From NCBI RefSeq assembly GCF_000332075.2, contig NZ_ALVU02000001.1, positions 310,001-374,000 of the forward strand: DNA of 64,000 nt, written 5' to 3'. Source of the DNA: Synechocystis sp. PCC 7509. Its GTDB lineage: Bacteria > Cyanobacteriota > Cyanobacteriia > Cyanobacteriales > Chroococcidiopsidaceae. Below the pieces are notes generated by a model. The model did not search any database. It was given only the letters and a program-made list of their open reading frames with translations, and was not told where the DNA came from. Every line of letters starts with the position of its first letter. Position 1 is the stretch's first letter. Below are positions 40,546 to 54,337 of this stretch, in pieces. A program made the translations under genes and the position numbers.

Positions 40546-40935
40546 GTATCCGTTGTGTTGACAATTGAAGGTTTGCAGTTAAGTCAGTATTGGAGATATT
40601 GCTTAGGAGCAATCGTCTATACTCCCCAAACTCGGACTCGTTATGTCTTTATTTTTTGATTAACAACTGCAACAGACTAACACGAAGGTTTTGCCTTGGG
40701 GATCAGTGATATAACGCAAAAGACACAAAACTAATCTATACTTTTGACAGAGGACATTAGGCTAAATGCAGTCTAGGCAAATGTTTGCTGGCTTTTATTG
40801 CCCTAACTAATCTGAAGAAAAAAGTTACAAAACTTTACAAAACTTAGAAGATTTTGAACTCGGCGAAATTAACAGCACATAGATTTGTAAAATACATCGT
40901 GGACGTGCGATCGCAATTAAGGCAGTTTCGTTTTT
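40546..40935. other. 390-bp region between divergent rlpA and purM
   Basis: No gene seen. The rlpA side holds a small stem (ATTGCT-TAGG-AGCAAT, 40598-40613) and a pair of complementary 7-mers (40623-40629 and 40696-40702) that could structure a long leader. The purM side holds an HLR1 site (listed). Promoters for both genes must lie here. Confidence 0.5.
40824..40841 (+). promoter_or_regulatory. HLR1-type RpaB binding site
   Basis: GTTACAAA-AC-TTTACAAA matches the HLR1 consensus (G/T)TTACA(T/A)(T/A)NN(G/T)TTACA(T/A)(T/A) exactly. RpaB is a response regulator controlling photosynthesis and high-light genes in cyanobacteria. It is 94 bp before the purM ATG. Binding is inference. Confidence 0.6.
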
Positions 40936-44815: not shown

Positions 44816-45802
44816 TTAAAAATTCATCTCCGCAGCTTGAACTTTCTCTACTTGCTTTTTCTTCAATACCAACATAACTTGAGATAGCATGATGCCAGAT
44901 ATAAATACTATCAACCATCTAACGCGCGTCGAACTTTGTAGCACTATTTCGCCGTCAGCTTGACCAAATCCACCCACATTTGGGTTATTAGTTAAAGCAT
45001 CGCCTATAGCTACAGTTTGTCCTTGAGCAACAAGTAGTTCAGGTCCCGCAGGAATGGTTTCTACAGTGTCGCCGTTATCGCTAGAAATTGTAACTTGATA
45101 GCCACCTTCTGCAACGGGGCTAATTTTGCTAATAGTTCCAGCAGCAGAAGCGTTATAAACTGTATTATTGCTTTTTTCACCGGTAGGATAAACTTGTCCG
45201 CGTCCGCGATTTGCACCTAAGTGAACGGCATATTTACCGAAGTGAACGTTTTTGTCAGTGGCTGGATTAGGAGAAAGTACAGGGAAAACAATTTCCTGAT
45301 ACTGTTCGCCCGGTAGTGGCCCAACTAAAACAACATTTTCTTGAGTTTCGCTGTAAGGCTGGAAATAAAGATCCCCGACCTTTTCCTTCATTTCCTCTGG
45401 GATTCTGTCAGCAGGAGCAATTTTGAAACCTTCCGGTAACATTAATACTGCCCCAACTTGCAATCCTCCTTTTGTGCCATCGCTGACTACCTGCTGGATG
45501 CTGGTATTGTAAGGAATTTTCACTACTGCTTCAAATACTGTATCGGGCAAAACCGATTGAGGTATTTCTACTTCCGAAGGTTTCGCCGCTAGGTGACAGT
45601 TGGCGCAAACAATGCGTCCTGTAGGTTCGCGGGGAGTTTCAGGATAAGTCTGCTGCGCCCAAAATGGATAAGCGGCGGCGGCTTGAGGTACTGCTACATC
45701 GCTAACAAAAAAGAAAGCAACCGTTACCAAGGTTAAAATCGCCGTTTTAAAGATCGCCTCTAATTTAAGAAGTGATTTTGCTGCAAATAATGCTGTTTTC
45801 AT
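44816..45802 (-). CDS. petA: Cytochrome f
   Basis: From the ATG at 45802 ([20 protein letters not shown]) the protein is 328 residues; an earlier in-frame ATG at 45871 adds 23 unlikely residues. A signal peptide leads to the mature start [20 protein letters not shown], whose Tyr is the axial heme ligand, with the heme motif C-A-N-C-H. The C-terminal helix ([20 protein letters not shown]) anchors it in the thylakoid membrane. Cytochrome f passes electrons from the Rieske protein to plastocyanin or cytochrome c6. It follows petC by 78 bp, and a strong terminator follows it. Confidence 0.97.
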
Positions 45803-45880
45803 CTGTAACAATTTCTGTGACAAGGACTCAATAAATGAAGTATGAGTTATTATTTGCAACTCATCATGCAAAACTTTTAG

Positions 45881-46420
45881 TTAAGCCCACCAAGGCTCTT
45901 CACCTGTACGGAAATCTGTCTCAGTCCACTGAGTTAAGGTGATTTTGTCGTCTTCTGCCTTGGCGTGAGCTAAAGCAAGTGACCGAGGTGCAGGCCCGCG
46001 TACTACTTTACCTGTGTTGTCGTACTGAGAACCATGACAGGGACACATAAATTTATTTTCGTTACCATTCCAAGGGACAACACAACCTAGGTGGGTGCAA
46101 ACAGCATTGATGCCGTAATCAGAGATCGCATCCTTGCTCTCTGCCACAATATAAGTTGGATCGCCTTTAAGTCCTTGGGCTAACGTGCGATCGCCTGCAC
46201 TGCGATTTTCTAAAAACTTACTAACGCTAAAATCGTTGCCTAGCGCATCTTTTGCTGTAGTTCCACCCGTTGCGCCGCCGCTAGAGGGGGGAATAAAGAA
46301 CTTGACGACGGGATACAATGCTCCGGCGGCTGTACCAGTAACTGTCCCAAAAGCCAGCAAATTCATAAATTGACGACGACCCATATTTGGGACATCCATT
46401 GATTCTGACATCTGCGCCAT
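45881..46420 (-). CDS. petC: Cytochrome b6f Rieske iron-sulfur protein
   Basis: A 179-residue Rieske protein. The N-terminal region [20 protein letters not shown] with a double Arg precedes the single helix, and the [2Fe-2S] ligands are in CTHLGC and CPCHGSQYD. Such double-Arg segments fit Tat-dependent insertion; tatC lies 530 bp upstream, convergent with the DUF3067 gene. petC is the first gene of the petC-petA operon. A divergent 203-bp region with a perfect HLR1 site separates it from the DUF3067 gene. Confidence 0.97.
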
Positions 46421-46556
46421 ACTGTTCTCTCTTAGACCAATGTTAACTTCTTTGAGCTTATTTCAAAAGTGCGATCGCGCTATAGTTTGCGTCGGACTAC
46501 CAATCAAAAATATAAAAATCCCTCTTGCTGCGAAGGTTCTCATCAATAGGAGATAT

Positions 46557-46574
46557 ATTACATTTCTTTATATT
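46557..46574 (+). promoter_or_regulatory. Degenerate HLR1-like site
   Basis: ATTACATT-TC-TTTATATT differs from the HLR1 consensus at two positions. Its core TTACATTTCTTTA is inverted at 46608-46620 within the perfect site. Possibly a second, weaker RpaB site between petC and the DUF3067 gene. Confidence 0.35.
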
Positions 46575-46603
46575 GGTATCATACTTGAGTTACCTATTTC
46601 TAA

Positions 46604-46621
46604 TTTGTAAAGAAATGTAAA
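46604..46621 (-). promoter_or_regulatory. HLR1-type RpaB binding site
   Basis: On the minus strand TTTACATT-TC-TTTACAAA fits the HLR1 consensus exactly. It lies 183 bp from the petC start and 14 bp before the DUF3067 ATG. Near an RNA start it could block transcription of the DUF3067 gene; upstream it could act on petC. Confidence 0.6.
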
Positions 46622-46635
46622 AATTGGCAAAAGTC

Positions 46636-46944
46636 ATGACAGGACAAGACTTACACCAGCTATTGCTAAATAAATGGGGACGCTCTTACGATGTGCAGTT
46701 GCGGCGCACCCAAGGGAAAGTATTTTTACAGGTAATGTGGAAATACTTAGAACAAGCTTCGTTTCCGTTGAGTAAAGCGGAGTACGAAGAACATATGGAT
46801 GCGATCGCTACTTATTTAGACGGGTTTGGCGGCACGTTACAGGTACAACGGTATATTTTAGAAACAAAAGAACGTCCTCGTTTGGGTAAGGCGGTGAGTA
46901 TTCCGCTAGATTTAGGACTTCGGGCTTCGGAGTGGATATTGTAA
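46636..46944 (+). CDS. DUF3067 family protein
   Basis: From the ATG at 46636 the protein is 102 residues (MTGQDLHQLLLNKWGRSYDV); a TTG at 46624 is a possible earlier start. It reads as a compact all-alpha/beta protein with the family pattern KVFLQVMWKYLEQASFPLSK and LGKAVSIPLDLGLRASEWIL. DUF3067 proteins occur in cyanobacteria and plastids; their role is not known to me. The gene is divergent from petC and convergent with tatC (3-bp gap), in a cluster tied to cytochrome b6f. Confidence 0.87.
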   Translation: MTGQDLHQLLLNKWGRSYDVQLRRTQGKVFLQVMWKYLEQASFPLSKAEYEEHMDAIATYLDGFGGTLQVQRYILETKERPRLGKAVSIPLDLGLRASEWIL

Positions 46945-46947
46945 TAT

Positions 46948-47724
46948 TTATTTACCTAATAATTTTACTAAACCAATTCCACCAAAATAAAGTCCTAATA
47001 CAGCACCCGCTAATAAGCTTTGAGTTAAAGGATCGGTTGAAGGGGTTAAAACTGCGCCTAAAACTACCGCAGCAACAATTACAAACCGCCAACCCTGCAA
47101 CATTTGATTTGAAGATACTATCCCTAAAAAGCCGAGTAAAACCTGAATAATCGGAATTTGAAAAGCTAACCCGGTACTAAATAACAGTAATAATACAAAC
47201 TCAAAATACTTATCAATTGACCATATTTGCTCAACGACACCTTCACCATAGTTGATAAAGAAATTGAGCGCCGCCGGAATTAAAAGAAAATAAGCAAATA
47301 CTAATCCCGCCGCAAACAGAAAAGTAGACCCGATGATGACAGGCCCAATTAAACGGCGTTCGCGGCGAGTTAAACCAGGGAGAACAAATTGAATGATTTG
47401 ATAAAGTATGACAGGACTTGCTACCACTAAGCCGCTATAACCAGCAACTTTAAAAGAGACAAAAAAGAATTCTCCCGGAGCAAGTTGCAGAAATTTTACA
47501 CCTTGAGCGGGTACTTCTAATAGTTGAACAATAGGTTTAACAGCGATGAAACAGCCAGTTATACCTACTACCACCGCAATTAACGCATAAAAAATTCGCC
47601 ATCTTAACTCTTCTAAGTGGTCGAATAGTGACATCTCCGCTTCATCAGGAAGTTCATTAAGAAATTCCTCTGGGGTGTCAAAATTTTGCTCGGCTAAGGT
47701 TTCAACTTCTGCTGGAGGTGTCAT
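46948..47724 (-). CDS. tatC: Twin-arginine translocase subunit TatC
   Basis: A 258-residue inner-membrane protein with six helices and the TatC N-terminal [20 protein letters not shown], whose LEELRxR stretch is the signal-peptide receptor region. The conserved loop between helices, [20 protein letters not shown], is present. TatC with TatA exports folded proteins; in cyanobacteria the Rieske protein is a known client type. It is near petC, which suggests functional clustering. No tatA/E lies in the window. Confidence 0.95.
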
Positions 47725-53409: not shown

Positions 53410-54312
53410 TTACCCCGAAGACTCTGCTTGCAAGTCTAGAATTAGTTGGGCTAATTCGTCGCTGCTGGCTTGATATACTTCGCCGCAAAAATGACAAGTT
53501 GCTTCCGCACCGCGATCTTTTTCAATCATATCAAGCAACTCTGCCTCTCCCAACATTTTCAATGCGCCCAAAACGCGATCGCCAGAGCAACCGCAGTGAA
53601 AACGTACTAACTGAGTTTCTGGTAATATTTCTAATTCCATATCCCCCAGTAGTTGCTCAAAAATTTCCGGCAAACTCAAGCCTGCTTGTAATAACGGTGT
53701 AAAACCAGAAAGCGAAGCTACCCGTGATTCTAAAACTTCTACTAAAGCTTCATCTCTAGCAGCTTTGGGTAATACTTGAATTAATATCCCTCCCGAAGCC
53801 GTAACCCCATTAGCGCCCACAAATACGCCTACAACCAAAGCCGAGGGCGTTTGTTCAGAGGTGACGAGGTAATGAGCCACATCTTCGCCAATTTCCCCCG
53901 AAACCAACTCGACAGTACTAGCGTAAGGATACCCATAGCCGACATCACGGACGACATACAAATAGCCTTCTTTTCCTACCGCCCCACCAACATCTAGTTT
54001 GCCTTTACTATTTGGTGGTAGTTCTACTTCAGGATTGTCTACATAGCCGCGTACTGTGCCATCTAAACCTGCATCTACTAAAAGTCCCCCTAGTAGTCCA
54101 TTTCCTTTAACCCGGACATTCACTCGCGAACCGGAGCGCTTCATATTCGAGGCAAGCAACAGCCCCGCAGACATGGTACGACCTAAAGCCGCCGTAGCTA
54201 CATAGGAAAGCTTGTGTCGTCCTCTAGCTTCTTCGGTGAGGCGGGTTGTAATTACACCTACGGCTCGAATTCCACCATTGGCGGCGGTGGCACGAATTAA
54301 TTGATCTGCCAT
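53410..54312 (-). CDS. hslO: Redox-regulated chaperone Hsp33
   Basis: A 300-residue Hsp33. The N-terminal domain starts MADQLIRATAANGGIRAVGV, and the C-terminal redox switch has zinc cysteines C240, C242 (HCGCSGD) and C273, C276 (CHFCGE). Oxidation releases zinc and unfolds the linker, activating the holdase, so the protein protects against oxidative stress. The start codon at 54312 is preceded by a near-HLR1 sequence. Divergent from an SRPBCC-like gene. Confidence 0.95.
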   Translation of the reverse strand: MADQLIRATAANGGIRAVGVITTRLTEEARGRHKLSYVATAALGRTMSAGLLLASNMKRSGSRVNVRVKGNGLLGGLLVDAGLDGTVRGYVDNPEVELPPNSKGKLDVGGAVGKEGYLYVVRDVGYGYPYASTVELVSGEIGEDVAHYLVTSEQTPSALVVGVFVGANGVTASGGILIQVLPKAARDEALVEVLESRVASLSGFTPLLQAGLSLPEIFEQLLGDMELEILPETQLVRFHCGCSGDRVLGALKMLGEAELLDMIEKDRGAEATCHFCGEVYQASSDELAQLILDLQAESSG

Positions 54313-54319
54313 AAAAACC

Positions 54320-54337
54320 CTTACATTTCTTTACATC
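54320..54337 (+). promoter_or_regulatory. Near-HLR1 site in front of hslO
   Basis: CTTACATT-TC-TTTACATC differs from HLR1 only at its first and last positions; the core TTACATTTCTTTACA is identical to that of the petC/DUF3067 site on the minus strand. It lies 8-25 bp from the hslO ATG and 103 bp before the SRPBCC gene. Confidence 0.45.

Follow-up and report, generated by a model that had tools for sequence, protein, structure and literature searches.

RpaB occupies the HLR1 element under low light; over-reduction of electron carriers inactivates or releases it. Photosynthetic electron flow is controlled at cytochrome b6f, whose Rieske protein is exported by the Tat system (TatC). To our knowledge, light control of the Rieske gene has been little described in filamentous and in desiccation-tolerant cyanobacteria. 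Class II activator promoters are characterized by a regulator site centred at -41.5 and by the lack of a -35 box. The HLR1 consensus, KTTACAWWNNKTTACAWW, is composed of two KTTACAWW direct repeats with a 2-base gap (PMC13421787). The same 2026 review lists petB and petC1, the latter in Synechocystis PCC 6803, as RpaB-repressed targets, associates an HLR1 spanning -38 to +23 with repression and one at -45 to -66 with activation, and states that RpaA and RpaB have sites in common (PMC13421787).

Here, the window (the whole 64,000-nt stretch of Synechocystis sp. PCC 7509 DNA that was analysed) was found to carry an inverted pair of HLR1-type sites between petC and a gene of the DUF3067 family. 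This double site is real, conserved and of the RpaB type, and it lies at the predicted petC promoter. We favour, with somewhat more confidence than doubt, the interpretation that it belongs to a promoter under RpaB control which petCA shares with the divergent DUF3067 gene.

The petC-DUF3067-tatC cluster and its HLR1-type sites

The region is bounded on one side by petC (45881..46420, minus strand; Pfam TM_PetC and Rieske), which encodes the Rieske iron-sulfur subunit and is followed by petA (44816-45871; Pfam Apocytochr_F), and on the other by a DUF3067 gene of 102 codons' worth of protein (46636..46944, plus strand; 102 aa; PF11267 at 1.1e-42 and 144.9 bits, cut-off 25). The latter is convergent with tatC (46948..47724, minus strand; PF00902), a conserved member of the cluster. 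The DUF3067 start was set at the ATG at 46636, a conserved start column from whose first residue the product matches, over its full length, the protein of PDB 2LJW, namely the Nostoc orthologue Alr2454 (E 1e-49). The initial annotation had described a 203-bp spacer; this figure holds only when counted from a TTG at 46624 and becomes 215 bp from the conserved ATG.

Site B, TTTACATTTCTTTACAAA (46604..46621, minus strand), was recovered by direct reading and by scanning with 0 mismatches to the consensus, both KTTACAWW units and the 2-base gap included. Site A, ATTACATTTCTTTATATT (46557..46574, plus strand), is a degenerate HLR1 with 2 mismatches, namely A in place of K and, in the second TTACA, T in place of C. 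Matches to TTACATTTNNTTTACA, a motif with incorrect spacing, were disregarded. The two sites share an exact 13-bp inverted repeat, TTACATTTCTTTA (46558-46570 versus 46608-46620), and 14 bp separate site B from the ATG of DUF3067. On all these points the initial annotation was accurate: the coordinates, strands and quality of the sites, their assignment to the HLR1 type, the shared repeat, and the distances of 14 bp to DUF3067 and 183 bp to petC.

Among 292 phylum-wide genomes, DUF3067 occurs in nearly all those searched from the window's class and was not found in any member listed from the other classes, which we read as non-photosynthetic lineages. The petA-petC / DUF3067 / tatC order was intact in all 16 sampled members of a family that we read as picocyanobacteria (L275-L290), where DUF3067 is only 28-47% identical and where no HLR1 site was found at petC/DUF3067 (16/16). 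Gene order ties DUF3067 to the Rieske protein more strongly than the HLR1 site does, and the connection to cytochrome b6f drawn in the initial annotation stands mainly on this ground. No paper on the DUF3067 family was found in the literature searched. With its solved structure, DUF3067 is made by this cluster a concrete candidate for a role in Rieske or b6f assembly.

Conservation of the paired sites

DUF3067 relatives were gathered from 60 near genomes, 292 phylum-wide genomes and 80 named genome records, and their spacers were read; the nearest relatives among the named records are labelled Chroococcus, Chlorogloea and Aliterella. petC is divergent from DUF3067 at 168 of the 197 loci, and alignment of the spacers revealed a conserved block spanning site A to site B. 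Across 115 distinct block-carrying petC/DUF3067 spacers, the outer half of site A (TTACATT) was intact in 114 and that of site B (AAATGTAAA) in 101, so that the conservation of HLR1 at orthologous loci, on which the initial annotation had made its proposal depend, is borne out. Spacing between the starts of A and B is nearly fixed, with 47 bp in 91 of these 101 spacers, 44 in 8 and 48 in 2. The outer half-sites are the best-conserved bases of the spacer, with means of 1.34 (A) and 1.16 (B) bits per base, compared with 0.86 (A) and 0.82 (B) bits for the inner half-sites and about 0.4-0.6 elsewhere in the spacer. A stretch of 15 nt at site A, ATAAAGAAATGTAAT, is invariant, or almost so, in 51 diverged leaders.

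When one spacer per genus or family was considered, 12 of 40 spacers contained a site with no more than one mismatch, against 0.07 expected, and nearly all of these sites point in the petC direction. In this genus, and likewise in genera of other families (f15, f35), site B matches perfectly; in Nostocaceae it has 2 mismatches. In most relatives, site A differs from the HLR1 definition at 2-3 positions. Some of the conservation may thus be the promoter's own. At one locus (L043), the decayed half of site A reads TTTACA, leaving two perfect TTACA cores in A. Among the spacers compared, many families of the order lack the conserved block, as do the sampled picocyanobacteria.

The petC core promoter and its leader

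Between sites A and B, the hexamer TATGAT (46578..46583, minus strand), kept in 104 of the 109 distinct sequences that were aligned, is best read as the petC -10 box. This would place the petC start near 46571, site A at about -3 to +15 and site B at -50 to -33. The petC start thus probably falls within site A, and the distance of 183 bp is not the one that matters for petC. On the plus strand, the same box reads TATCAT (46577-46582) and provides a possible -10 for DUF3067. TATAAA was considered as another petC -10 and is disfavoured, its second base being poorly kept and the motif being lost in L244. No mapped petC start was found in the literature searched.

With the start predicted from TATGAT, the span of site A fits the repressing range (-38 to +23), and site B straddles the repressing and activating ranges. 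In the interpretation we favour, the two sites would frame the core promoter of petC(-petA), B lying just upstream in the -35 region and A over the start. RpaB would most likely bind both, holding petCA down in low light until high light releases it, and DUF3067, which in most relatives is read in the opposite direction from this 65-bp block, would probably be switched along. As A and B would both lie inside the RNA polymerase footprint, repression of petCA is the likeliest net effect. The block would thereby offer an exact model of the petC promoter, with two sites, one -10 box and a fixed spacing.

Yet, the centre of site B falls near -41.5 if TATGAT is the -10 box, a classical activator place, so that the sign of control could be opposite. 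RpaB bound at B would then recruit RNA polymerase to petC in low light, A serving to trim or time expression. This activating role is rather unlikely in our view, even if several features are in line with it: no -35-like hexamer was matched at the predicted promoter, site B has the petC-direction orientation in nearly all relatives, and its centre would move to -52.5, inside the activating range of -45 to -66, if TATAAA were the -10. However, the second base of TATAAA is precisely the poorly kept one, 14 of the 115 loci have A without a recognisable B, genomes in which petC and DUF3067 are separated (see below) keep petC without the outer half of B, and petC1 of strain 6803 is listed as repressed (PMC13421787).

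Downstream of the predicted start, the petC 5' leader (46421..46571, minus strand) is structured in Nostocaceae-type relatives, where four helices show covariation above both shuffles and slid controls. Support for a single leader structure across the order was weak to absent, and no Rfam match was obtained for the leader. Helix 1 starts inside site A, in agreement with a petC transcript that begins no later than 46558. A conserved stretch resembling TTGTTAACAAAGATACAC lies about 30 nt upstream of petC, and hairpin leaders occur in L049, L154, L199 and others. The petC leader is possibly an undescribed leader RNA.

Assignment of the block to petC and DUF3067

Lineages in which the region has been stretched or broken indicate which gene the block follows. 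At about 20 Nostocaceae loci, 64-494 bp separate the pair from DUF3067, and the pair still lies 145-150 bp from petC; in one Nostocaceae genus (L296-L299), short repeats, GGGAACAGGGAACA and CAAAATCCAAAATC, occupy the gap between block and DUF3067. Elsewhere, a few lineages have a petC leader lengthened to 183-573 bp and an unchanged DUF3067 side. In three genomes, belonging to two genera of the family Nostocaceae, petC and DUF3067 are separated. All three retain the TATGAT core at petC and two retain site A there, the outer half of site B is lost in all three, and no such block was found upstream of the relocated DUF3067. Searches within 450 bp of DUF3067 detected no HLR1 with up to 2 mismatches at any of the 29 loci where this gene is not beside petC. 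One genus with a rearranged and quite different petC upstream region has a perfect HLR1 33 bp before petC.

The insertion and split lineages point to a block that is primarily the petC promoter, whose site B may be shared. The initial annotation, which saw the pair chiefly as a block to DUF3067 transcription with petC at a distance, had thus partly misread the target of the sites, since these lineages keep the pair or its core at petC. Ownership by DUF3067 alone is ruled out by the same lineages. Ownership by petC alone is weakened by the loss of the outer half of B in the split genomes, which argues that petC does not need it, and site B may serve both genes.

A stricter division, in which A over the petC start would control petC and B over the DUF3067 leader would control DUF3067, the latter role being the one that the initial annotation had given to B, strikes us as no more probable than the activating role of B. 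The B-DUF3067 distance is near constant in most families, including those with a petC leader lengthened to 202-573 bp, only 14 bp lie between B and the DUF3067 ATG in this genus, and its outer half disappears whenever DUF3067 is no longer a neighbour in the split genomes. Against this, the Nostocaceae loci with displaced DUF3067 hold B intact, the orientation and spacing of B match the petC core, the relocated DUF3067 genes have no HLR1 of their own in the interval searched, and the breakpoints may simply have cut B.

The shared promoter that we prefer could take a more specific form, namely a two-way redox switch with an RpaB site over each divergent start and a common near-palindromic -10, GTATCATAC, by which petC and DUF3067 would be co-switched. 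We regard this as a tentative possibility, slightly ahead of the two preceding alternatives. If true, DUF3067 would be a light-controlled factor making or inserting the Rieske protein, a role that fits its conserved place between petC and tatC.

RpaB and the specificity of the sites

RpaB is encoded in this genome, with one gene above the NF045944 cut-off (397 bits versus 330) among about twelve that match the model over nearly its whole length. These matches leave room for another OmpR-type regulator, such as RpaA or SrrA, to bind instead, the block being a core promoter joined to the beginning of a structured leader, and the HLR1 likeness of A being partly coincidental. The origin of leader helix 1 in A, the degenerate inner half of A and the sharing of sites by RpaA and RpaB (PMC13421787) are all compatible with this explanation, which we nonetheless judge improbable: site B is perfect here and in genera of other families, and the TTACATT outer halves outlast all else in the spacer.

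In 4000 dinucleotide-preserving shuffles of 46421-46635, no perfect HLR1, no opposite-strand pair of equal quality and no 13-bp inverted repeat arose, and an HLR1 with at most one mismatch appeared in 8. Genome-wide pattern searches returned 9 perfect HLR1 versus 3 for a reversed control pattern, and 29 versus 22 with at most one mismatch. Because this enrichment over the control is only mild, a lone consensus match in the genome is weak evidence, and the case for the sites rests on conservation. The notion that they are chance matches in AT-rich spacer DNA, to which the scarce excess of 1-2-mismatch matches over the reversed control lends some colour, is ruled out by the shuffles and by conservation across families, and we give it practically no weight.

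Several other HLR1 matches were observed. Perfect sites lie 40 bp before an hli gene (L002, G000:C1:1945335) and about 150 bp before the gene of the orange carotenoid protein, OCP (L063, G000:C1:1161194), the latter accompanied by another, near-perfect site at a distance of 13 bp; hli and OCP are high-light proteins. A small contig carries two perfect HLR1 in tandem, one base apart, near an HU-like gene (L004, G000:C2:30796-30832). Within the window, a second perfect HLR1, GTTACAAAACTTTACAAA (40824-40841), is located 94 bp before a purM-like gene (ATG 40936), between this gene and a divergent rare-lipoprotein-A-like gene (both named by eye). Another stretch, CTTACATTTCTTTACATC (54320-54337), combines two perfect TTACA cores with 2 mismatches to the complete consensus and lies 7 bp upstream of an hslO-like gene (53410-54312, minus strand; named by eye) for the redox chaperone Hsp33.

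Comparison with known systems

The closest described system is the HLR1/RpaB regulon of Synechocystis PCC 6803 and Synechococcus PCC 7942, which has the same 18-bp direct-repeat consensus as found here (PMC13421787). petC1 is a listed target of that regulon, and in the present genome HLR1 sites also occur near hli and OCP genes. In contrast to the regulon, the predicted sites described here form an inverted pair with a fixed 47-bp spacing that frames the -10 box of a divergent petC/DUF3067 region, an arrangement that was not found described in the literature searched. On the protein side, Alr2454 of Nostoc PCC 7120 (PF11267, PDB 2LJW) is a clear orthologue of the DUF3067 product and its gene occupies the same divergent place beside petC in Nostoc relatives, with the difference that its structure is already solved. 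With regard to promoter architecture, site B would be positioned as in class II activator promoters if TATGAT is the -10 box; unlike in those promoters, a second site here would lie over the start.
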